Below, piece by piece: positions 8,611-43,746 of a stretch of DNA of 64,000 nucleotides. The notes under the pieces are model-generated. The model was not told the DNA's origin and did no database searches. It saw only the letters and a list, made by a program, of their open reading frames with translations. The stretch is taken from NCBI GenBank assembly GCA_018389105.1, contig JACATO010002730.1, positions 3,454,501-3,518,500 on the forward strand, given 5' to 3'. Position numbers and translations under genes: made by a program. The stretch comes from Nautilus pompilius (lineage: Eukaryota > Mollusca > Cephalopoda > Nautilida > Nautilidae). Numbering within the stretch: the first letter of the stretch is position 1; each line of letters begins with the position of its first letter.

Positions 8611-10221
8611 TTTAATGTACTTTCAATAAACTCTGAACTTCACGCGGCGAAATCAAGCTCTTACATGTGATAATTGAAAATAACCTGTAATCTAGATTGC
8701 AGTTAATACGGTAATGAAAACAAAATATGATACTATGTTTATATATAATTACTATTATTAGTAGTAATTAGGGTTTTCCCTAACGCATTTATTACTACAA
8801 AGAATAAGTCTACGCTTCAACGATTTTCCTTGTCGGTTATCATTAGTCCCAAGAAAAACATTTGTATTATGAAATGTTGATATTTTTTCAGTGAATTCAT
8901 AACTTAGTTGTATTACCACTAATATGGTAAAATGAAAAGCCCGAAATAATAAACTAACGTTTGTAGACAGCAAATGACTCTTATCATCATTTATTGTTAT
9001 TAAAAGAAACTTTCAGAATCTCTTCTCTTAATTATGATCGTTCTTTTCTTTACCTGTACTCAGCCGGTATCACTTTTATTAACCCAATAGCAACAAAAAT
9101 ACTAAGTAAGCAAATAGACACAAAACAGAGAAGAAAAACGTTTCAATTGTTTTAGTGTTCTAATACCTATATTTGTAATGTTTTAAAGTTTGCGAACTAT
9201 GTCACTTTTTCTGCTGATTTAGTCTCTACTGTATAGTGCTTCCCGACTGTTGGTCGTTTGTACCAAAACACCAAAGATAAAACGTCACGCCTACGAGATA
9301 TGGTCAAGAAGATAACAACAACAACAAGAATAGCAATGACAAAAAAGTTGTCGCCTTTTCTTGGAGAGAATCGGTTACAATAGCTGCCAATGATTAGCAT
9401 CAAAATCCCAGTGGATGCTAGAAGAGTGGGCATGTAAACGTAGGGATACTGCACCAGGAATTATCATTGTAATGGAAAAAAACAAAACAATAAGCATTCT
9501 ACGGTTCTTCACTGCTGGAAAGTGACTGTCTTGGCTGAGGAGATATGCCGACCTCACGTATCAGAAAATATCAAATGCGGTGATTGTTTTTGACAAATCA
9601 GTAAAACAGTTCTGACTGTTGAATAGTCAAACATATCATAACGAAGAACGTCGGGCCATTACGGGGAGGGGAAATCCTCAAAGACAAAGTATATAACAAT
9701 AACGCAATAAGGAAGCTTTGCGTTGTGCAAGAGACTAATCGCGTTATTGCTTCATTTGATGAAAACAATTAAAAATTTTCTTTTCTTTCTTCCCCGCTCT
9801 CTGGAGAAATTTTCCCGAATCCAGTGAACAGTAAAACGAAATGTGTCGAAACCGATCAGTTTATTAAATCAGTTTGACACTGAGTTTGGAAACCTCTGAG
9901 AAGATAGCAGGTCGAATCCAGCTCAGATGACTGTCAGCGCAAAACAGTGTATAAATTGGCTTTGTCACTATGATGAAGATGCTTTCTAAAATTTGTAAAT
10001 GTACACAGACATTAAGATATTTGTGAAAATAAGGATAGTTTTCATAAAGAACGAAAGACAACAATGAATGCCATAAAGCAAACTTATTGACAAATGATTA
10101 TCGGATAGCACTCCGATGGACTTCACAAAATTGGAATATTATTCCAGTTATATTCAAGAGACAGAACACTTTTTGATCTTAGGCACCACTGGTACCTGTA
10201 TTTTAAAATATAAAATTATAA
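8611..10221. other. AT-rich non-coding DNA, nothing recognised
   Basis: Two overlapping minus-strand frames at 9197-9557 are hydrophobic but show no family motif and are probably chance. Nothing else could be supported. Confidence 0.55.
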
Positions 10222-10834
10222 GTAATTACTAGGGCAGGTCGATTTTCAACTTTTTTAAAAATCGCAATATGAGTAAGTATACAGTAGTTGCATCTATTCA
10301 AGTAGTACACAATAAAAAAAAAATTAGGCTTTTAGGTTAATGTTCCGCTTGCGGATTTGCGATTAAAGTTTAATTGTGTTTCAAGTTTATTTCATATTCT
10401 ATATTTTTTATCATAAGTTACATAACATTTGGAAAAGAGAACAATATATTTCCATAATGACCCAATAAAACTAGGAATATAAATGATCATATGACTGAGA
10501 ATAATGTCCTTTTGACATAAACACTGGACGCATTTTCCTGCTCAGCAGTTTCGTAAGGATAGATCTGTGTCGGGCCTCAAACCCATACACTGAATGAGAA
10601 GCTTCTGTCACTAACTTTACACTCCTTTCAACGCTCTGAGAATGACATGGTAGGTTTGGAATATCCGGCTTTGTGCTCTTGTTGATGAAGGTCTGGATTT
10701 CCTCATCAGAAAAGTGTTGTGTAGTTGGTGGCTCCATTGTACCAGCGTCAGGAAGGTCAATAAGCTCTGGCCAGGTGTCAGCGTCCCAGTTCACTGGAGG
10801 AATTTTCTTTTCCATTTCTTGGCTGCTGTTCATT

Positions 10835-11020
10835 CTGGAAATAAAAAAAAATGTATATTAATAATATCGGCCTAATAATCAAAACTATTTCCTTATTATT
10901 TTTGCTCTGAAAATTCGAAATATAAAAATTCCACAGACGTTGCCTAAGTATTCTGTTCAAATCTTAATATATTATTTTGAAAATAAAAATATCTAGAATA
11001 ACAAATTTTGCAAACACTAC
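10835..11020 (-). other. Intron 2 of the hAT-like transposase
   Basis: The donor is CGCAG|GTAGTG and the acceptor TTATTTCCAG|AATGAAC on the minus strand. Joining completes an Arg codon (AG+A) and continues into MNSSQEMEKKIPPVNW. The unspliced frame ends at the TAG inside the donor. Confidence 0.75.
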
Positions 11021-12289
11021 CTGCGTCTGAGAGTAAGAATTGTGTGAAGTCCAAGATTTCTGATCTGGTCATCATCATCTTTCACCATGGCGTAAAGGAA
11101 GTTTGCAGGTAGCAGGCAGAAAGCATTCCCCTGAATATTTTGTTTTACAATGCGTCTCACATCATCAAACTGAATCAGTTTCAAGTGGTTGATGGTAGAG
11201 AAAAGAATGCGAGGTGAATCATGTAGTTTAGAGGACATCTTTAAGCTGAACCATGAGGGAGCATAAACCTTGACGATGTATTGGATTAATTTTGTCAGAT
11301 TCTTGTTTGGACTGTTGTCTCGTGTGTATAGACAAAGAAGTCGTATAGCAAGTGTTAACCATCGTGCATGGTTGAGTGGACCTATTTTCCAGGCTGCCCA
11401 TCTATCATCTACTCTTCCCACTCCGATACCCTTACAATATTCATAGAGAAGCCTTTGATCATGACTGAGATCCTTCAGTACCTCATCTGGAATGTACTCA
11501 TCAGTAATTGGTGTTTGAACTGGCTCAAACTGTACTTGTGGTTCACCATGAATATCTTCTAAGCACCTTTTTCCCAAGGGGTCCATTGAAGCTTCTTGGG
11601 CCAGTTGTTGTTCCATCCAGTTTTTTAAATAGGGCTCTTAGTGGAAGTTCATTTTGATGAAGGGCACAGCCAATTGTGTGCAGCTTCCTCCCAAGAATTT
11701 CTTCTAGCTTTACCACCAAACCACTCTTAGAACCAGTGTTTGTTGCTGTATTGTCAAGAAGAATAGCATGTATACTCTCAAGGCTGTCATATTCTTGAAG
11801 AACACTGAATGCTTCCTGAGCAAGAACATCGCCAGTAGCACCTACAACAGGTATTGTTCTGTGGGTCAAATAGGTGCCTGGAGATTTTCCATCTTCATAT
11901 GTGAATGTGAGATGATGTTCTGTAGCAACACACTTTTTGAGAACATTTCCCCCTTCTTGCGCTTCTGTTTCCTTATATGTCAAGGTTTTATCATCAAGCT
12001 TTCCATCTACACCCATGCAAACGAGGTGTGTCTTCGTCTCTGACTCAACTTCTTCACTAATTACTCTTACTTTTGATTTAGCCCTGTCTAACTTACACTT
12101 GTCAATTAAGATTTGATTAATGTCAACCTCTGGCCTCAATAGGTGTTTGATGTCATAGAGCAAGGCATTACCAAGAGCTGCCCCAAGACTGGAGGAACAT
12201 TCAGCTCTGACAAGCTCCATAGCATATCTGGGAAACTTGAGAAGGTTGTAGTCTCCTGAAGTCCTCCTGTTAGGCTGCCATTCATCTCC

Positions 12290-12471
12290 CTGAAAATATA
12301 AGAATCACAAAAGATTAGATAGGGAATATTACTTCTTCAGCAGATTAAGATACAAGAAAAAATGCATTAATTTTTGCATGAAGTAGTTGTGATTCGAAAT
12401 ACTAACATAGCATACAAGGTAATGATCGTTTAGTTCATATATACTAAGGCAAAGAAAAAAAAAACACGAAC
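12290..12471 (-). other. Intron 1 of the hAT-like transposase
   Basis: On the minus strand the donor reads GAG|GTTCGT and the acceptor TATTTTCAG|GGAGAT. Joining them gives ...NSE-GDEWQPNRRTSGDYN... in phase 0, which continues directly into the frame at 12220. A stop codon follows the donor if the intron is read through. Confidence 0.75.
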
Positions 12472-14263
12472 CTCAGAATTTGATTGTTCAGGGATATCTG
12501 TAGGCTGTGTAGAAGGTCCTGCTAATTCAATGTCCTCCTGAGATAAGACATGTTGCTCTCTCAGTTTAGCTCTCCTATCTCTTTTGGCAGCAGATATGTC
12601 CACCGAAGACATCTGAAATGCTCCCTTGGGTCCTGTTTTTGAACGCTGATCTCGAAGATATGCTCTTTCTTCAATTGGCACCTTTGCAGCTGCTGGACAA
12701 ACGCAGATGATGTGTTCTTTTGTGCATTTGTCTTTTTTGCAATATATCCTAGAATCGTTGCAAGGCACAATTTCCAGAGGACAGGAACAGGCTGATATAT
12801 CAAAGAGTTTGTCCAACTTAGAATCCAGATTACGCTTAGCATTTGCTTTAGCATGCTTGCGATTTATGTCTTTCACAGTCACAAAGAGATCTTTAACTTT
12901 TCTGTCAATGGATTTTTTCATGAATTAATGGTAATCTTGGATTCACAGACAACCAAATTGATTTCAAGTCCCTGGTAACATGCTGCACTTTAGCCCAAAA
13001 ATCTGCACAGGGATCGGCACATTCTAGATAATAATAATATTGAATCAATTGTCTGTAGGTGCTGGGATCTGTGAGCACTAAATCACAAGGACCACCGCCA
13101 TATTTCTCTTCACTTTTCTTTCTTGTTAGCGGCGTTGTTTTCACTTTCGGCATTTTTTCAAAAATATCTCAGACAACCTTAAATGTAATTAAATTCAATA
13201 TTAAAATCTGATATATAAATTAATGATGTTACAAACTCTTGTCTTCAGCTTGTAATATACTCATAATCCTCCCCCCTTTTCCGATGATAATAATAGAAAC
13301 ACTCACTAAAATAATTATTATTACAGAGTAAGTTACTATGCAAAACACGGCCTCGCAATGACACTATAAGCAAGATTCCAGTCCGCCGTCGGCGCAAGGC
13401 AATACACCGTATATTTTCTAAAATAAACACAGAGAGAACCGTCCTTAAACTATAAATATATATATATAATAGGGGGCTGGACACGCAGTGGTCCGTAACA
13501 TTGACTTTTAAAGCATAGCAAGACAAGGACAGTTGAAAAAAAAATGGTTACATGCACCGAAAACACTAGTGAAAAAGTAAAATTAAACAGTTATTTCAAA
13601 ATCCGCAAAAAGATATTCAAGTTAAACTCATATATTTGTGATTTTAACGTATTATACATGGAAATGCAACTACTGATTGCTTACTCACACTCCTGTGTCA
13701 ACATCGACCTGCCCTAGTAATTACTCATTGAAAATACAATTTTAAAAAGCTTTAGGTTGTTTTATTTTATTTAAAGTCAATAAATTTTTTGGCACAGTCG
13801 TCAAACGCTAAGTTTAAGTGAACGATCCGTATTACCTTTCGAATGTGCGTGATTGTCTTTTATTACTGGAATATTTCATGTTGGAGATGAGTAAATTAAT
13901 GTTTAACCAAAGTAAGCTGGTGTTTAAACACTCATGCGTAACTTTCTTTAGAGCTAACCCGTCAACAGCGTAGAATAATCGATGCTCCGAAAAAATGATT
14001 TCGGTCTGGTCAATAAAGTGAGCTATTATTCAGCGCCATCTAGCGGAATAATCAAGTTGAACAAAATGTAAAATGTATTCCATTTTTAGATATTATTTAT
14101 TTTGGAAAATTTTTTATTGTCAAAGAAAATTATTTAACACACATATAGTATTAAAATTTCCAAAAAATCAACATTAAACCAAAGGCAACGAAACAAAAAT
14201 TAACTTGAAAACTTGGAAATGCTGTAAAGTCTTAACTCTCTGAGACCATTTTGGGTACATTTA

Positions 14264-15810
14264 CAGGTGAATCTCAAAAAATTAGAATATCGTGGAAGAG
14301 TTCATTTTTTTCTGTAATTTAATTCAAACAGTGAAACTTTCTATTCTAGATTCATTACAAATAAAGTGAAATATTTCAAGCCTGTTTTTGTTTAATTTTG
14401 ATGATTACGACTTACAGCTCATGAACATAAAAAAATCCACTATCTCAAAATAATAGAATATTTCATAAGATCAATAAAAGAAAGGATTTGTGATATATAA
14501 ATGACAAACTTCTGAAAAGTATGTTCATTTATGCACTCAATACTTGGTCGGGGCTCCTTTTGCATGAATCACTGCATCAATGCGGCGTGGCATGGAGGCG
14601 ATCAGCCTGTGGCACTGCTGAGGTGTTATGGAAGCCCAGGTTACTTTGATAGCGGCCTTCAGCTCATCTGTATTGTTGGGTCTGGTGTCTCTCATCTTCC
14701 TCTTGACAATACCCCATAGATTCTACATGGTGTTCAGGTCAGGCGAGTTGGCTGGCCAATCAAGCACAGTAATACCATGGTCAGCAAACCAGTTACTAGT
14801 AGTTTTGGCACTGTGGGCAGGTGCCGAGTCCTGCTGGAAAAGGAAATCAGCATCTCCATAAAGTTTATCAGCAGACGGAAGCATGAAGTGATCTAAAATC
14901 TCCTGGTAGACGGCTGCGTTGACTTTGGACTTCATAAAACACAGTGGACGAACACCAGCAGATGAAATGGCACTTCAAATCATTACTGACTGTGGAAACC
15001 TCATACTGGACTTCAAGCAACTTGGATTCTGTCTCTCTCCACTCTTCCTCCAGACTGTGGGACGTTGATTTCCAAATGAAATGCAAAATTTACTTTCATC
15101 TGAAAAGAGGACTTTGAACCACTGACCAACGGTCCAGTTCTTTTTCTCCTCAGCCCAGGTAAGACGCTTCTGATGTTGTCTCTGGTTCAGGAGTGGCTTG
15201 ACACTAAGAATGCGACACTTGTAGCCCATTTCCTGGACACGTCTGTGCGTGGTGGCTCTTGATGCACTGACTCCAGCCTCAGTCCACTCCTTGTGAAGCT
15301 CCCCCTAGTTCTTGAATCGGCTTTGCTTGACAATCTTCTCAAGGCTTCGGTCATCCCTCTTGCTTGTGCACCTTTTCCTACCACACTTCCCTTCCAGTCA
15401 ACTTTCCATGAATATGCTTTGATACAGCCAACCCTTTCAGCAATGACCTCCTGTGATTTACCCTCCTTGTGGAGGGTGTCAATGAGTGTCTTCTTCACAA
15501 CTGTCAAGTCAGTAGTCTTCCCTATGATTGTGGTTGTGTGTACTGAACCAGACTGAGAGATTCAAGGTATTTATACTGCATAAATAGTGATTTACTCAAA
15601 CTCGTAATGGAATATTCTAATATTTTGAGATATGTTTTTTTTTCTATATTTTATCTGTAGGCAGTAATTATTAAAATTAAAATTAAAAAATGCTTGAAAC
15701 ATTTTAGTTTACATGTAATGAGTCTAGAATATATGCAATTTTCACTTTCTGAAATAACTGAAAAAATATTGAACTCTTCCACGATTTTCTAATTTTTTGA
15801 GATTCACCTG
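14264..15810 (-). mobile_element. Tc1-like transposon, fish-type family, 1547 bp with both ends
   Basis: Both ends read CAGGTGAATCTCAAAAAATT followed by AGAATATCGTGGAAGAGTTCA, with one mismatch. They are flanked by TA at 14262-14263 and 15811-15812. Beyond about 45 bp the ends stay similar, imperfectly, to about 200 bp (shared blocks such as TCTAGA.TCATTAC, TTTCAAGC and TCTCAAAATA.TAGAATATT), so the inverted repeats are long. The transposase relic lies inside on the minus strand. The terminal sequence and protein resemble, from memory, a Tc1 family abundant in fishes. Confidence 0.9.
14537..15525 (-). pseudogene. Tc1-like (DD34E) transposase, inactivated
   Basis: The reading frame is recognisable from GKTTDLTVVKKTLIDTLHKE (about 15525) to PRRIDAVIHAKGAPTKY (14540). 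The likely start codon has become ATA. The N-terminal helix-turn-helix part is out of frame with the rest. From 15229 a single frame carries VLFSDESKFCISF (first catalytic Asp) and FLFQQDSAPAHS (second Asp). It has one TGA where the family has the Trp of the WGA motif. A TAG replaces the Glu codon in SPDLNxxENLWG, so the third catalytic residue is itself a stop. About 330 codons are present, the normal Tc1 length. The enzyme would cut the element's ends and insert it at TA. This copy cannot do so. Confidence 0.88.
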
Positions 15811-17864: not shown

Positions 17865-19180
17865 CGAGGTCTGTCGAAAAAGTATCCGACTTTATTTTTT
17901 TCTCGTGGGAAGCAATGACATTAGGGAGGCAAAAGTGTGCATAGTGGAGCCGCATGCCTTCATGAGCATGCGTGAAGCGTGGTTTTTGGCGGGCTTGCTG
18001 GATGTGTCTGTCGCTGTCAGGAAGCCAGCGTGTGAGGTTCTGTACTACTTACTCGTCGCATTTTCATTTCGCCCGTGATGATGGAACGTGTGGGGCAACG
18101 ATCTTGCAACAAGTTTTGCCAAAAGCTTGGAGATACCCAAGCGGAGACAAATCGTAAAATTCAACAGCCTTTTGGTGACAACTATGGGTGTTATCCAAAT
18201 AAAGAATGGTACAACAGGCTCAAAGATGGCCACACATCAGTGGAGAGTGACCAGCATTCCTGGAGGCCGTCAACAAGCCACAATGCAGTTGTTATCGAGA
18301 AAGTGCGGACCATGATAATGGAGGATCAACGTTTGACGGTGCGGGAAATTGGTGATGAGGTTGGAATCAGTAAAGATTCTGCACATGCAATTTTAAAGGA
18401 AGATTTGGACTTGCGCAAAGTGGCAGCGAAATTTGTGGCCAAGCTGCTTTCTCAGGAACAAAAACAACTTCGTCTTAAGGTTGCGCAGGTCCTGCTGGAT
18501 ACTGTCAACAGAGATCCTGAGTTCCAGAATACCGTGACAACTGGAGATGAGACATGAATGTACGGGTGCGATCCGGAAACCAAAGCTCAGTCATCACAAT
18601 GGAAGCACCCAACGTCGCCAAGGTCCGGAGAAAAATCAAGGTGATGCTGACTGTTTTCTTCGACTACCAAGGCGTTGTGCATCACGAATACGCACCAGAA
18701 GGACAAACAGTTACAAAGAAGTACTATCAGGAAGTCCTCCGACGTCTTTATGATGCAGTTTGGCGCAAGAGACCGGATCTGTGGGCCTCGTTAAAACTGG
18801 CAGCTGCATCATGAAAACGCCCCGGCTCATTCGTCGCAGCTGATCCAAGGTTTCTTGGCAAAGAAATGCATTTCGCTCATTCGCCTGGCTCCCTACTCTC
18901 CAGACATGGCTCCTTCTGAGTTCTGGTTGTTCCCAAAAATGATGATGCCACTGAAAGGCTCCAGCTTTGAGAGCAGAGAGAACATCATGCGGAATGCGGC
19001 GGCAGAGCTGAGAGCCATTCTGGAAGAAGCATTCCAGACGTGCTTCCAACAATGGAAGGATCGTTGGGCTAAGTGTTGAGGCACACGGGGTCTATTTAGA
19101 AGGGGATTAGCAATTCAATCCCACCAAGTACGTAATTTTTTTTCCAAGTCTAAGGTCGGATACTTTATCGACAGTACTCG
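17865..19180 (+). mobile_element. mariner transposon (DD34D type), 1316 bp
   Basis: The left end reads CGAGGTCTGTCGAAAAAGTA then TCCGAC. The right end is its reverse complement with a few changes (CGAGTACTGTCGATAAAGTA). TA flanks both ends (17863-17864 and 19181-19182). The length is normal for mariner. The transposase relic runs on the plus strand inside. Confidence 0.88.
18075..19079 (+). pseudogene. mariner transposase, broken, with substituted catalytic residues
   Basis: The N-terminal part (18075-18557) has the paired helix-turn-helix region, with RPSTSHNAVVIEKVRTMI and LTVREIGDEVGISKDSAHAI. It reaches the first catalytic motif, TGDET, after which TGA replaces the usual Trp. The same frame continues MYGCDPETKAQSSQWK and then shifts. 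The middle part holds KVMLTVFFDYQGVVHHEYAP. The last part holds LHHENAPAHSSQLIQG and YSPDMAPSEFWLFPK. Family members have Asp at HDNA and APSD; here both are Glu, with the normal 34-residue spacing. The frame ends at RWAKC. At least one stop and two frameshifts make it non-functional. Confidence 0.85.
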
Positions 19181-26027: not shown

Positions 26028-26168
26028 AATGATAGCCTTTACACTTAAAGCATCTTTTGAAAGCAAAATGGATGACAAAATAAATATTACATTTTAAATA
26101 GCAAATTATGAAAAATACAGCAATGCTTTTCTTATCTTTTCATTATTTATAGAAAACTGCCTAACATA

Positions 26169-27790
26169 CAGTGCCGGACAAAAGAGTTGGGACACTTGCT
26201 GTGAAATTGATATTTGAGCTCCCTCGTTTTAACAAACGCTTTTAAATACCCATCACATTGTTTATTATATGCACAAAGAATGCCTTTACAATTTATGAAA
26301 GCAACACATGCTATATGTTTATATACTCTCTGGAAAAAATACTTGAATCGGCAATGTCCGATTTGTACCGCGACAAAAGAGTTGAGACAGTGAGCAAAAC
26401 CATAAATATTTTTCAACATTCCAAATTACAATCGAACAAATGCATGGAAATAATGAATTGACTAGTAGTGAGTGGCGTATCTGTGATTGTCGATCACTTC
26501 TCGATAACGACGGGGCATTGATTCGACCAAACAAAGGCAATCGCAATTGGCCATTTACTGCCAGTTTTTCTCGACGGCCTGCCAGAATTGGTCTTGGTTG
26601 AGATTCTTGTGTTTGGCCACTTTGACCTTCAGCTGCTTCCAAGCATTTTCGATTGGGTTGACATACGGACTTTGGGGCGGCCAGAGCATGACATTCCTAG
26701 TTCGGTGGTGAGGGAAGTGACGACTCTGGAGATGTGGATGGGGGCAATGTCTTGCTGGAAGATGGCGATGACTGGCATGTTCTCATCGATGTAGTCGACG
26801 ACGACATCCCTCAGTAAATTTCAGTAGGTCTGGGCGGTCGCTCTGTCCCTGATCAACTTGAGAAGGCCTGGTCCAGCCGCGCTCATACACCCCAAGACCA
26901 TCAACGATCCTCCTCCGCCCTGTACCGTAGGTCGGGTGCACTTTATATTGTATTTTTCGTCATAGTAACGTCGAACATATACTCGGTCGGTCAGCACTGT
27001 GAATGCGCATGATCATCGTTTCGTCGGAAAAGAAAACTCTAAACCATTGAACTTTGGTTCAGTTTTCGTGCACTTTAACCCATGCTATACGGATGCGCCT
27101 GTTCTTGTTGCTGATCAATGGCTTTTTTTGGGCGATTCGTCCAAAGAGATTTCCCTCGTATAGATGACGTTGTATAGTGTGACTGGAGACATTCACTCCA
27201 CTCAGGGAGGTTCGAGTGCCCGTCGCTGCCAGGAAACGATTGGCCCTAGATTTGCGACAAATGAGTTGATCCATTTTGTTGTCACATCTTCGCGGTCTTC
27301 CGATTCGCATTTTTGGTTTCGTGTTTCCCATCTCCTTGTACTTGTACTGTTTCAGAATGCGGTTTACAGTGCTTTTCGGGCGATTGACTCGATCTGCTAT
27401 CTCCCAACAAGGCAGATTTTCTTGGTTGTGCTCAACTATCAAGTCTCTGATTTCAGACGACGTTGTCTTGCCAGGCATGGTGCAAAAATGATCTTAAATG
27501 GTCTTAGATGATGTGATTCTATTCATTTGATCCTTTAAAAATGAGTATATTGAGGGGAATAAATGTATGCACAGATTTTTTTCACCGTCCCAACTCTTTT
27601 GTCGCGGTACAAATTTGACTATGCTAATTCAAATATTTTTCCAGATGACATTCGTTGTATTTACATGTTGTAAAGGCATGTTTTATACAACTTATGGACA
27701 ATAGGATGGCTATCTGTATGCAAATGTAAAAACAAGAGAGCTCAAGTATCAATTTCACAGCAAGTGTCCCAACTCTTTTGTCCGGCCTTG
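26169..27790 (-). mobile_element. Tc1-like transposon with inner and outer terminal repeats, 1622 bp
   Basis: The ends read CAGTGCCGGACAAAAGAGTT on the left and CAAGGCCGGACAAAAGAGTT (reverse complement) on the right. They continue for over 50 bp as GGGACACTTGCTGTGAAATT etc. TA flanks both (26167-26168 and 27791-27792). A second, inner copy of the motif, GTACCGCGACAAAAGAGTT, lies at 26365-26390 and, inverted, at 27584-27610. This is an IR/DR arrangement like that of Sleeping Beauty-type elements. The transposase relic is on the minus strand. Confidence 0.9.
26462..27478 (-). pseudogene. Tc1-like (DD34E) transposase, interrupted
   Basis: The frame starts MPGKTTSSEIRDLIVEH at 27478. It shows a first helix-turn-helix (WEIADRVNRPKSTVNRIL), the GRPRR AT-hook-like motif and a second DNA-binding helix set up to about residue 139. 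There TGA replaces the Trp of the HENW motif. The same frame continues through FFSDETMIM (first catalytic Asp). After a shift come FQQDIAPIH (second Asp), a further shift, and SPYVNPIENAWKQLK with the catalytic Glu retained. The C-terminus MPRRYREVIDNHRYATHY ends at 26462. The length, about 340 codons, is normal for the family. At least two stops and two frameshifts make it inactive. Confidence 0.85.
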
Positions 27791-27792
27791 TA

Positions 27793-29005
27793 TATGTATA
27801 TATATATTGTACAAGTTTCACGATTAATAAATTGCTCAAGTGTATTCAATCAAATGAAGACATTCGAATTTTTGCAGCGATTAATATTCAGATTATAAAG
27901 CGACAGTTTAGGCAGATGGGTATTTTACAATTAATAGTCATACTATAAAAATACACTTTCTGACCAAAAAAGAAGAAACGCATTATCTTTCATATCTGAA
28001 ATGTCTTCATACATAAGAGAAGCTCGCAATCAACACTTTTCTTGGTCATACAAGCGCTATAGGGAATCTGTGATTTTTGTTGGAATGTGAGCGTCAAAGC
28101 TTTTCACTCCTACGCCGTCGGAATTAGCTGATTTGAAGAAAAAAGTATTTTTGGGGTGTAAATAAAATTAAAACAAGATGTTTTTATCAGAATCCCGTGA
28201 AGCAAGGTTACAATGTATCCAGGCTATGATCGAGATGCATGATAATGCAATGAAATGTACAAAATAAGGTGGTGTTCATTTGTAACCAATCTATGCTCTT
28301 AAAATCCCAAAATCTATAAAGCTTTATTTTCATGTGATGTGAACACATTTACCATACTTGTAAAAAATGTAATGTATTTTAAAGCGTTAAAATAAACGGC
28401 AACAACTTTGTATGTATTAGGTAAAAACAAATTTACCTAAATAATATTTTTAAAATTTTTTTTTAGATTTATCAGACTTCAAAAACTGGACACTTATGAA
28501 TGCATAAAACGTTTATTTCCTTAGGCGCAAATCGGTCTCCCAGGATTTCCCAGTCGTCAGTTTGTCGACGAAATCATTTGCTGAGGTCGAAAGTCTCCAA
28601 AGATATGTTAGAGAATTTAAATCTATAAACAAAATTGAATAATCGACAAACGTTCACCCGATACAAGCAATTCTCATCTGTCAAATTAAAAATTCTCCTC
28701 AAGCGTATGTATTTTTTATTGTTTTGCTCTACTGATTATTTACCTGCAACTTCCCATGCTACATTACTTTTAATAAACTATTACAATTGGTAAAGTTTTA
28801 TGTATAAAAGTGCAATTATTTACTTTCATAAAAAGTTTAAAGCATAGGGCGAATTAAAAAATTTTCTAAATTTATTTCTCATAAATCATATTTTTATATA
28901 AATGTTAGATATCACTAAAATAACGAACAATACTAATTTAATTCTAAAGATTTTATTTTCTTCTTAATGCGAATTTCACTTTTGGTAAGCCTCCTTTTAA
29001 ATTGA
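27793..29005. other. Non-coding DNA, nothing recognised
   Basis: The region just right of the Tc1-like element holds only short frames. No repeats were identified. Confidence 0.55.
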
Positions 29006-30784: not shown

Positions 30785-32075
30785 CAGGGTGACCCAAAAA
30801 AACTGGCCACAACTTTCGATAGGCCTAATTTCTTAATTTTCTGCAAGAATTGAATGAAACTTTGGTGATAACTAGTTTATTGTGTTTAAAAACATCATAT
30901 AAAAACATGAGTCTTTGGACTTTTCTTCTTTATTCTAGAGCATGTTTTCGAGATGACCTCCATTTAGCTCTGTGCATTTCTTGAGGCGCAGCACAAAGTT
31001 GTCCATGACGTCTTACAAACCGACCGACTAATGGCTCTGACCTCCTCCCTGATAGCTTCCTTGAGTTACGTGATGGTCCTGGGTCTCCCTGCATACACTC
31101 TGTCTTTAAGGTAGCCCCAGAGAAAGAAATCTGGGGGACTAAGGTCTGGGCTGTGAGGTGCCCACTCAAAATCAATCTTGAGACTGATCACACAGCCACC
31201 AAAGTTCTCTTTCAGCCAATCTCGGGACAGGTTTGAGGTGTGAGAGCTTGCCCCATCTTGCTGGAACCAGAACTTCTCCATAAGCGATGGGTACAGGGTC
31301 TGCAGCTCACTCTTGAAGGTTTTGAGGACCTCAACATACCGCTCCTTAGTGACTGCCACTGTCGCGCCAGATTCCTGGAAGAAGAATGCTCCGATGATGC
31401 CTCTGGCTGAGATTGCAGTCCATACCGTGCACTTAGGGGAGTGTAGAGGCTTAGTGGCTAACTCATTTGGTCTGGAGGTCCCCCAGAAGACATTTTCTTC
31501 GAGTTTACCTTTCCTTCAAGATGGAAGTGAGCTTCATCTGAGGTCCAAAGGAGGTTAAGGAAAGTTTGGGTCTCCTGAATATTCTCCAGTATCTTGACTG
31601 CCATAGCCTTTCTCTGCTCCTTGTCTGAGGCTGTAAGGGTCTGTTTCCTCTGTATTCTGTATGAGTAGGCCTTTACATCCATTACTAGCACTCTCCTGCA
31701 AGTCTCACGGGATATACCGAGGGACTGACTTCGCTTGCGCACAGAGCGTTTCAGACTCTGCTGAACCGACTCTCTCACGCTCTCGACTATCTCAACTGTA
31801 CGCTTCCTGGGGCGTCCTGAATGGCTTGGACAGTTGTCACTGGCTGCATTGAGGTTCTCCACTGTCCCATAGTTCTCGAAGTGGTCTACCCAGTCCTGAA
31901 TTCTGCTCTTGGAGGGGGCTTTTTCACATTCCAACTGATGCACGAAAGTGCCCTGCACTTTCTTGAACGAGCCTGTCTTGTAGTAATGTTTGACGCAGTA
32001 TATTCTTTGCTGGAGCTCCCATTGAGATCTAGTTGTGTTCACAGGTGTTGCTATCGTGATAGTATACAGCACGCA
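30785..32075 (-). mobile_element. mariner-like DD41D-type element, one end visible
   Basis: The left end begins CAGGGTGACCCAAAAAAACT then GGCCAC, after TA at 30783-30784. This is the usual form of a mariner-superfamily terminus. A matching inverted end was not found to the right of the coding region, down to about 32300. The 5' side therefore seems lost or too diverged. The transposase relic fills the rest. Confidence 0.72.
30950..32075 (-). pseudogene. DD41D-type mariner-like transposase, broken
   Basis: From about 32040 the minus strand reads WELQQRIYCVKHYYKTGSFK and the helix-turn-helix region. It then reads SGRPRKRTVEIVESVRESVQ and RSVRKRSQSLGISRETCRRV. The first catalytic motif is TSDEAHFHLEG. 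After a one-base frame change come KCTVWTAISARGIIG, FWFQQDGASSHTSN (second Asp) and PHSPDLSPPDFFLWGYLKD (third Asp). I count 41 residues between the second and third Asp, the spacing of DD41D elements of the rosa/Visitor type. A TAA replaces a Gln codon at TIT(Q)LKE, and the C-terminus is also interrupted. It is inactive. Confidence 0.8.
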
Positions 32076-32109
32076 TGCTATTTAAACTGCCTCTGGAAGC
32101 TGAAGAGGA

Positions 32110-42157: not shown

Positions 42158-43746
42158 CAGAGGTGTGCAAAAGTCTTGCATAAAAATAATTTTTCCTGTA
42201 AATTAGCTCGCATTTTGTCGAAAGCAGTTGTTATCAAATCTTGTTCATTAAAGTATTTCTATATTACTGCTGTGCATCTATTCCAATATTATCAAGCATA
42301 TTGTTTCATTGTAAGAAAAGTTATAACTTTTAGAAAATCATTTGCATAAAATCAACGTGTACAGCTATCTAATCAATTCAGATTCAATACCAATTATGCA
42401 TAAAGTGATCAGATCTATCAATAATGAGTAGAATATCCGAAATTCTTGATAACTTGTTCACAACGGCGAGGCATGCTGGCTACCAAACGCTGACAATTGT
42501 CACTACTGAACTCCGTCCAGGCTTCCTCGAATTTCCGTTTCAAATCGGTTTTATTTTTCAGTTTTTTTTGGCACTAACGCTGAGTTTAATCGAGTGCCAA
42601 ATGTTCACGATTGGATTCAGATCCGGGCTTTGAGCCGGCCAGTCGAGGAAGGGGATTCGCAAGTCTGCCATCAAGGCTTTGACACTCCTAGCTGTGTGGA
42701 TGGGGTCGTTGTCCTGTTGATAGATGGAAGTCAGGGGTATCTGGTCACACATACACCGTTCGACAATGTTCGAGACGATCTTAGCATAGTCATGAGCATT
42801 CATTCGACCCTCCACGTGATGCAACGAACAGACACTGGATGATTGAAAACAACCCAAAACTATGGCCGAATCTTCACCTGCCTGTAGATTCCGTCGAGTG
42901 CAACTAGGATGGTATTTCTCGGACACCAATCGCCGAACGTACACCCGACCCGCCGAGTGGACCCTCACGAATTTGCTATGGTCGGAAAACAACACTCGGG
43001 ACCACTGGGCCACTGTCCAATGGAGATGGTCGCGAGCCCACTGCAGTCGCTTTCGACGATTGTCCAGACTGATGAACAGCTTCTTCTGTGCCGATCGCCC
43101 GAACAGTCCCCTGTGGATCAAATGCCGTCTGATGGTGCACGAAGCCAACTGGCTCCCATGGTGCCTGGACAAGGCGGTCTGGATGTCGGTGGAAGTGCGG
43201 AATCGGTCCGAGTTCGACGTGCGGGCGATCAGACGATCCTCTCGAGCCGTCGTTTTACGCGGTCTACCGGCTCTGCGTTTCGAAATTAGGCTTCCATCGG
43301 TTTTCCAACGTTTCAGGGTGCGAGATATCGTCGACTGATTGCAACCGATGCGATCCGCAATGAGCCACTCAGTTTCATCATCTTCTTTCATGCGAACGAT
43401 TGTGGTTCGCTGTTCGGGAGTCAAATATCGGGTTCTCGGCATCACTATATTGAACAAAAATAAATCAGAATAGTGGAAAATGACAGTTTTTCATATTTAT
43501 ATTCTAATGTCATAAACTATTATAGCACAAAATATATATTCTAATTTTTTGTAGTTTATGAAACACTTTTGTACACGCCGATTTAATGCAAATTATTTTA
43601 TTAATTTTTTTAAATTTTGACTGCAATTACAAAATGGTTCTTGGTGTTATAAATCGTTTAAAGACACCGATATTACTAATTTCTACAAAATAAGAACCCA
43701 TTTTCTAAGTCTAGTAATTTTTATGCAAGACTTTTGCACACCACTG
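42158..43746 (-). mobile_element. Tc1-like transposon, 1589 bp, both ends present
   Basis: The left end reads CAGAGGTGTGCAAAAGTCTT then GCATAAAAAT. The right end is its reverse complement with about two differences. TA flanks both (42156-42157 and 43747-43748). A related inner motif (ACTTTTGTACACGCCG, near 43563-43578) suggests an inner repeat on the right, with a weaker partner (CGTGTACAG) near 42356. The element contains the best-preserved transposase frame in the window. Confidence 0.92.
42418..43442 (-). pseudogene. Tc1-like transposase, near-complete frame, catalytic Glu lost
   Basis: The frame starts MPRTRYLTPEQRTTIVRMKE at 43442 (five upstream codons are also open) and runs 294 codons to 42558. 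It has two helix-turn-helix regions (EWLIADRIGCNQSTISRTL; HGSQLASCTIRRHL) and the GRPRK motif. First catalytic Asp is in VLFSDHSKF, where the neighbour is His rather than the usual Glu. Second is in IYQQDNDPIH. At the third position, SPDLNPIVNIW has Val instead of Glu, with the normal 34-residue spacing. A run of eight A after SVSA then shifts the frame. The remaining tail (KRKFEEAWTEFSSDNCQRL, then VASMPRRCEQVIKNFGYS) stays open to 42418. It would bind ends but not cut. Confidence 0.9.

Follow-up and report, generated by a model that had tools for sequence, protein, structure and literature searches.

A Young hAT-like DNA Transposon of Nautilus pompilius With a Conserved Non-BED Cysteine Cluster and Offset Subterminal Blocks

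Introduction

A 64,000-nt stretch of the Nautilus pompilius genome (contig JACATO010002730.1, positions 3,454,501–3,518,500; hereafter "the window") contains an element at positions 10230–13716 which raises the question of what kind of transposon carries an 8-bp target-site duplication (TSD), a spliced transposase gene and a cysteine cluster in the place where hAT proteins usually have a BED finger. The initial annotation of the window proposed a complete, divergent hAT-like transposon of a distinct and widespread lineage. The element is a real and young hAT-like transposon of complete structure, and two of its traits are unusual: a cysteine cluster that is conserved but has no BED match, and subterminal blocks that are offset between the two ends. 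It probably represents an autonomous, 3.48-kb cut-and-paste transposon of a divergent hAT-like lineage, with a two-intron gene for a 770-residue transposase. A divergent hAT-like lineage is the best reading, while formal membership of hAT is unproven.

Element Ends, Target-Site Duplications, and Copy Number

The full-length cut-and-paste DNA transposon at 10230–13716 is bounded by perfect 14-bp terminal inverted repeats (TIRs; TAGGGCAGGTCGAT), situated at 13703–13716 (minus strand, gene 5' end) and at 10230–10243 (plus strand, gene 3' end), as expected from the inverted ends first described. The inverted repeat 10218–10246/13700–13728 is the longest among the pairs listed for positions 10000–14000. 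The flanking TSDs (GTAATTAC; 10222–10229 and 13717–13724, unstranded) owe their assigned length of 8 bp to other copies; the window copy alone fits 8 or 10 bp because a palindrome, AGTAATTACT, adjoins TAGGG/CCCTA on both sides.

Forty further copies were fetched from the top of a list of 153 reported exon 2 matches in the 728-Mb genome, so that young and intact copies are over-represented. Together with the window copy they make up 41 loci, 39 of which have both ends. Loci L028 and L029, at about 317 and 350 kb on the same contig, share one insertion whose flanks run in opposite directions at the two places, some 33 kb from each other; either the region was truly duplicated in inverted form or the assembly is at fault. 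They were counted as one insertion, which leaves 38 independent copies of this family (family A).

An exact 8-bp duplication beside TAGGG and CCCTA was found in 29 of the 38 independent copies. Twenty-five of these 29 duplications fit the pattern nTnnnnAn (T at position 2, A at position 7), where base composition would predict 11% (binomial P = 2e-20); 21 of 25 still fit when the ATATATAT duplications are left out. Identity over 10 bp at the flanks was restricted to three of the 39 rows (the window, L023, and L036), and a 10-bp duplication is ruled out by the other family A copies, which give 8 bp. The 8-bp direct repeats of the initial annotation, and the nTnnnnAn pattern that it gave for hAT elements, are borne out by further copies, which give 8 bp and not the 10-bp or other duplications that it had named as contrary evidence.

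The family A consensus is 3479 bp long. The median copy carries 5 substitutions relative to it over about 3479 bases, a difference of approximately 0.1%, indicating a recent spread of the family. A genome-wide search with a pattern combining tip and subterminal motif gave 86 matches in forward and 84 in reverse orientation, with zero for the reversed control, which fits about 85 two-ended family A copies, the ends not being paired one by one. Family A has thus been active recently, and dozens of its near-identical copies populate the host genome; "widespread" applies within the N. pompilius genome.

Gene Structure and Reading Frame

The transposase gene is located on the minus strand. Exon 1 (12472–13153) encodes the N-terminal part with the cysteine cluster and is followed by intron 1 (12290–12471), exon 2 (11021–12289), intron 2 (10835–11020), and exon 3 (10471–10834), which contains the stop codon. 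Both introns are GT-AG introns; in the consensus they measure 181 and 185 nt. Two older, decayed families in the same genome, termed B and C, show no gap at these positions: intron 1 is absent from L056 (family B) and L055 (family C), and intron 2 from L056 and L052 (family C). As these relatives are continuous across the intron sites, they provide independent support for the splice junctions, in line with the two introns originally drawn.

The consensus of the 39 rows encodes a protein of 770 residues. This frame is intact in 20 of the 39 rows, or 19 of the 38 independent copies (L028 and L029 are both intact), and nine of the 20 intact rows yield an identical protein. The protein of about 770 residues that had been predicted for the window thus exists in the consensus and in these rows, but not in the window copy, where two A-runs, at about 12913–12918 in exon 1 and about 11568–11572 in exon 2, are each longer by one A and the frame is broken, which the initial annotation had not noticed. 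The window copy differs from the consensus by eight small indels (six in homopolymer runs) and two substitutions, and all 38 copies together show 155 small indels (80 in homopolymer runs) and 175 substitutions. The indel excess in the window copy, mostly in homopolymer runs, led to the suspicion of assembly error for the two extra A; the two frameshifts may be assembly errors, with real frameshifts as the alternative. With dozens of near-identical copies and many intact frames, family A provides a candidate active transposase.

Transposase Motifs and the Cysteine Cluster in Three Families

In the consensus protein, D322, D406, C435, H438, and E719 occupy the residues that the initial annotation had assigned to them in hAT order, and C122 and C152 delimit the cysteine cluster as proposed. 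By hand count, D322 corresponds to positions 12005–12007, D406 to 11753–11755, and C435–H438 to 11657–11668, all in exon 2; E719 (10627–10629) lies in exon 3 within the sequence HSQSVER. The cluster itself comprises C122, C124, C131, C138, C143, H147, C150, and C152 (12697–12789, minus strand, also hand-counted).

Family B (L049, L050, L051, and L056) shares 49–54% identity with family A over exon 2, and the longer matches of family C (L053, L054, and L055) share 28–31%; further family C copies are L052, L057 (the same place as L052), and L058. The motif order, the TAGGG ends, and an eight-ligand Cys/His cluster where a BED finger would be expected are common to all three families. The majority residues of B and C match family A at DGK (D322), at D406, at CxLHxNELPxRA (435–446), at RW (536–537), and at HxQxVERxxKLxxEA (714–728). 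Single copies have lost individual motifs, i.e., D406 and CxxH in L058, RW in L053 and L054, and H714 in L056. C435 and H438 are kept in family A and in every covering B or C copy except the decayed L058. All eight cluster ligands are present in three of three covering B copies and in one of three covering C copies (L058), while L054 and L055 each lack one. A second acidic residue, E727 (about 10603–10605, exon 3), is situated eight residues after E719 and is likewise kept in A, B, and C; E727 instead of E719 could be the catalytic Glu.

Duplications of the older families were read by eye. In family B, the duplication of L049 and L050 is GTGTGTAT; their flanks align, so that both represent one insertion. 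None was recognizable in L056, and an 8-bp duplication is therefore seen in one of two B insertions with both ends. In family C, all four insertions with both ends exhibit one: L052 TCAAATAT, L053 TTATTTCT, L054 TAGTTCAC, and L055 ATATAGCT. The single readable family B duplication fits nTnnnnAn.

Offset Subterminal Blocks

The ends of families A, B, and C share a subterminal block that lies 11–12 bp further in at the gene 3' end, a new feature which the initial annotation had not noted. In the window copy, the block STR1 is found at 13664–13687 (minus strand) at the gene 5' end and at 10270–10293 (plus strand) at the gene 3' end. It measures 24 bp in family A and covers positions 30–53 and 41–64 from the respective tips, i.e., 11 bp further in at the 3' end. 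The family B block (17 bp) covers positions 30–46 and 41–57, and the family C block (28 bp) positions 22–49 and 34–61. A second block shared by the family A ends, TTGCGGATTT, is located at 13599–13608 (minus strand, positions 109–118 from the tip) and 10349–10358 (plus strand, positions 120–129), as counted by hand.

Among 51 offsets, the best was 11 or 12 in each family. The score was reached by 0, 0, and 4 of 2000 shuffled ends for A, B, and C, respectively, and by 1 of 2000 when a second B 5' end was used. Since the offset had been seen by eye beforehand, the comparison counts as a check rather than as a blind test. In addition, different copies were combined, which weakens the result: in family B, the 3' end of L051 was set against the 5' ends of L049 and L056, and in family C, L052 supplied the 5' end and L054 the 3' end. 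A free block search recovered the offset in family A and in three of four C copies (L052, L053, and L055 at offset 11–12, with 1, 22, and 0 of 500 shuffles reaching the score); in L054, the best block was found at offset 13 (2 of 500 shuffles). In family B, the free search was not significant: the score was reached by 246 of 500 shuffles for L049 and by 424 for L050, and decay of the 3' motif in these copies is the probable reason. Genome-wide, the B motif ends at position 35 in five ends and at 45–46 in eight, and the C motif at 38 in seven ends and at 49–52 in eight. As these motifs were picked after the ends had been seen, the counts indicate consistency and not significance.

The offset might reflect no recognition rule at all, if the ends are long inverted repeats that have diverged since a single indel in their ancestor. 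Such an event would be expected to displace further shared blocks as well, and these were found at offset 11 in family A, at 13 in family C (L054, positions 96–117 and 109–130), and perhaps at 14 in family B, where the block was not significant (246 of 500 shuffles). The length of the 3' spacer also varies among family C copies. On the other hand, divergence among A, B, and C has altered the sequence of the block but neither its offset nor its position (30/41 in A and B). On balance, drift after an indel is a serious contender that we rate somewhat short of an even chance.

Does the Element Belong to hAT?

Family A shares several properties with elements of the hAT superfamily (Hermes, Ac, Buster, and Tip groups). 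Hermes generates 8-bp TSDs with the preference nTnnnnAn (PMC10368747), and published hAT limits are short TIRs of 10–25 bp and an element length of 2.5–5 kb (PMC3942097), in which the 14-bp TIRs and the 3479-bp consensus fall. The order D-D-CxxH-RW-E is likewise shared, as judged by comparison with the hAT loci L063 and L064 of the same genome. L064, like L059 and L063 a canonical hAT gene of this genome, has a PF05699 match and an open frame of 791 residues. The spacing from the second Asp to the CxxH His is 32 residues in family A and 31 in both L063 and L064. Unlike hAT proteins, family A has no detectable BED finger or PF05699 dimerization region: PF05699 gave no match in family A at E ≤ 10, where a diverged version may be present, and zf-BED matched neither family A nor the family C piece that holds the cluster (L055).

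A number of results weigh against hAT membership. The full 770-residue protein had no Pfam match at E ≤ 10, and neither PF05699 nor zf-BED matched the scanned pieces of B and C, whereas the control hAT L059 of the same genome matches both and finds Hermes in the PDB at 2.8e-14, and the control L063 matches PF05699, though not zf-BED. The profile-profile comparison suggested by the initial annotation was not significant, either against single hATs (hhalign P of 0.039 for L063, 0.063 for L064, and 0.16 for L059) or against the three aligned together (P of 0.7); the region concerned, from the second Asp to CxxH, was in register for L063 and L064 and out of register for L059. The spacing between the first two Asp residues is 84 in family A vs. 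68–70 in the in-genome hATs, and that between the His and RW is 98 vs. 55–58. L059 lacks the CxxH His at the matching place; counted from there, its distance to RW is 49. Two structure models exhibit an RNase H-like topology with D322 near the position of the first catalytic Asp by residue counting, which fits a hAT core, but their confidence is low (predicted local distance difference test, pLDDT, of 40 and 38) and E719 was placed in neither; the contrary outcome named in the initial annotation, a fold with these residues far apart, did not appear. For model 1, the best Foldseek match had an E of 0.011 and none reached E ≤ 0.001. Hermes was not among the matches listed for either model, and the same matches included non-DDE folds, namely Argonaute, pantothenate and sugar kinases, actin-like proteins, and ribosomal protein chains. 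The copies of B and C are decayed, and none of the four family C duplications fits nTnnnnAn. This last result, together with the single readable duplication of family B, tempers the hAT-like assignment.

Across Pfam and the PDB, sequence and profile searches found no transposase. Weak matches to TRPM_tetra (0.084), nitrilases (0.066 and worse), ATV_ORF273 (0.064), P33MONOX (0.21), Mad3_BUB1_I (0.049), and KARI_C (0.28) were taken as chance. Relatives were found neither in viral contigs nor in bacterial/archaeal genome contigs or phages, which says little given the viral and bacterial/archaeal nature of these collections.

A CxxH motif has been described for transposases with helical insertions generally and is not restricted to hAT (PMC7780238). 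As Pfam is silent, hhalign is not significant, and CxxH is not exclusive to hAT, the element is termed "hAT-like" and not filed as a proven member. The hAT-like identity originally put forward is thus supported by the nTnnnnAn duplications of 8 bp, the TAGGG ends, and the motif order, and lacks PF05699, zf-BED, and a significant profile match. Of the distinct lineage proposed at the same time, the non-BED cluster stands, with no BED match and recurrence in A, B, and C, while its placement within hAT is putative.

Two other origins were weighed. The element could be a divergent member of the P superfamily, in which a different N-terminal zinc domain replaces THAP. P elements have 8-bp TSDs, a distance from TIR to binding site of 9 bp at one end and 21 bp at the other, and subterminal repeats of 11 bp (PMC7776569); the ends described here are similarly planned. 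No THAP domain or P-element Pfam family was matched by the family A protein, and the CxxH 32 residues past the second Asp, followed by RW, fits hAT rather than P, as does the nTnnnnAn target of family A. The target preference of P elements differs from nTnnnnAn. A P-type origin therefore appears improbable. It is equally improbable that the transposase comes from a DDE group of the Mutator/IS256-like, KDZ, or Merlin type, where CxxH and a helical insertion also occur, and makes 8-bp duplications by chance. There was no Pfam match to these families (the criterion by which they were judged), the TAGGG termini and the pronounced nTnnnnAn bias of family A fit hAT, and the VER motif past the insertion resembles, by eye, the hAT C-terminal region.

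Proposed Mechanism and Comparison With Known Systems

Beyond insertion with an 8-bp duplication, we infer the following mechanism for the divergent hAT-like element. An RNase H-like core, formed by D322, D406, and probably E719 (with E727 as the alternative), interrupted by a mostly helical insertion and carrying the CxxH of C435/H438, would excise the element at TAGGG and join it to staggered 8-bp targets. The N-terminal cluster of seven Cys and one His is predicted to offer ligands enough for two zinc ions and may do the job of the Hermes BED finger and bind the subterminal block. The block lies deeper at one end than at the other, by 11–12 bp or about one turn of the helix, which suggests that unlike ends are probably paired, by analogy to P elements, which have been compared with RAG 12/23 signals. 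Taken as a whole, the scenario in which a hAT-like lineage swapped its BED finger for a cysteine module with two zinc ions, and in which a rule of one helical turn, arisen separately from P and RAG, forces the pairing of unlike ends, is tentative and, in our judgment, rather unlikely. If true, asymmetric-end pairing by one turn, which RAG is known to use and which has been proposed for P elements, would extend to hAT-like elements, and the BED finger, which is stated to be universal, would be dispensable for a hAT-like core.

With P elements, the families share the 8-bp TSD, a spacing from repeat to internal site that differs by 12 bp between the ends (9 and 21 bp in P elements, likened to 12/23 signals), and a further internal repeat (11 bp in P elements; PMC7776569). 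P elements additionally have a THAP finger, which was not detected in family A, and a GTP-binding insertion. The comparison with the RAG 12/23 signals is one of geometry, with about one helical turn of difference between paired ends, as drawn for P elements (PMC7776569). Hermes ends contain many short AAG(T/C) sites (PMC10368747), while family A has a single long subterminal block, fixed in its offset, instead of many such 4-bp repeats. The hATm elements share the TAGGG termini and have 8-bp (or 9-bp) TSDs; their termini are TAGGGTG/CACCCTA as opposed to TAGGGCAGG (A), TAGGGTAGG (B), and TAGGGTACA (C), and their transposase, compared by description and not by protein, has PF05699, for which the families here gave no match (PMC6004678).

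Among literature titles and the beginnings of abstracts, with most subscription papers and Repbase outside this scope, neither a hAT-like family with a non-BED cysteine cluster nor a one-turn offset of hAT ends was found, and searches directed at these two features gave no papers. Proteins with CxLHxNELP and HTQxVER seem to be common among unnamed animal proteins, and Repbase may hold relatives under plain hAT names. As the protein is unrecognized by Pfam, such elements may stay unclassified in genome annotation.

Neighboring Features in the Window

Several transposase remnants of Tc1/mariner type are located elsewhere in the window. Those at 42561–43490, 27062–27493, and 14978–15304 match the Pfam families HTH_Tnp_Tc3_2 and DDE_3. 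The remnant at 31069–32081 matches DUF4817 over 31461–32081, its part at 31069–31515 being recognized by eye only, as was the remnant at 18036–18554. The Tc1-like piece at 27062–27493 is flanked by inverted repeat arms at 26166–26399 and 27576–27793 (152 and 65 nt, 76–83% complementary), and arms and piece together probably constitute a Tc1-like element with long TIRs.
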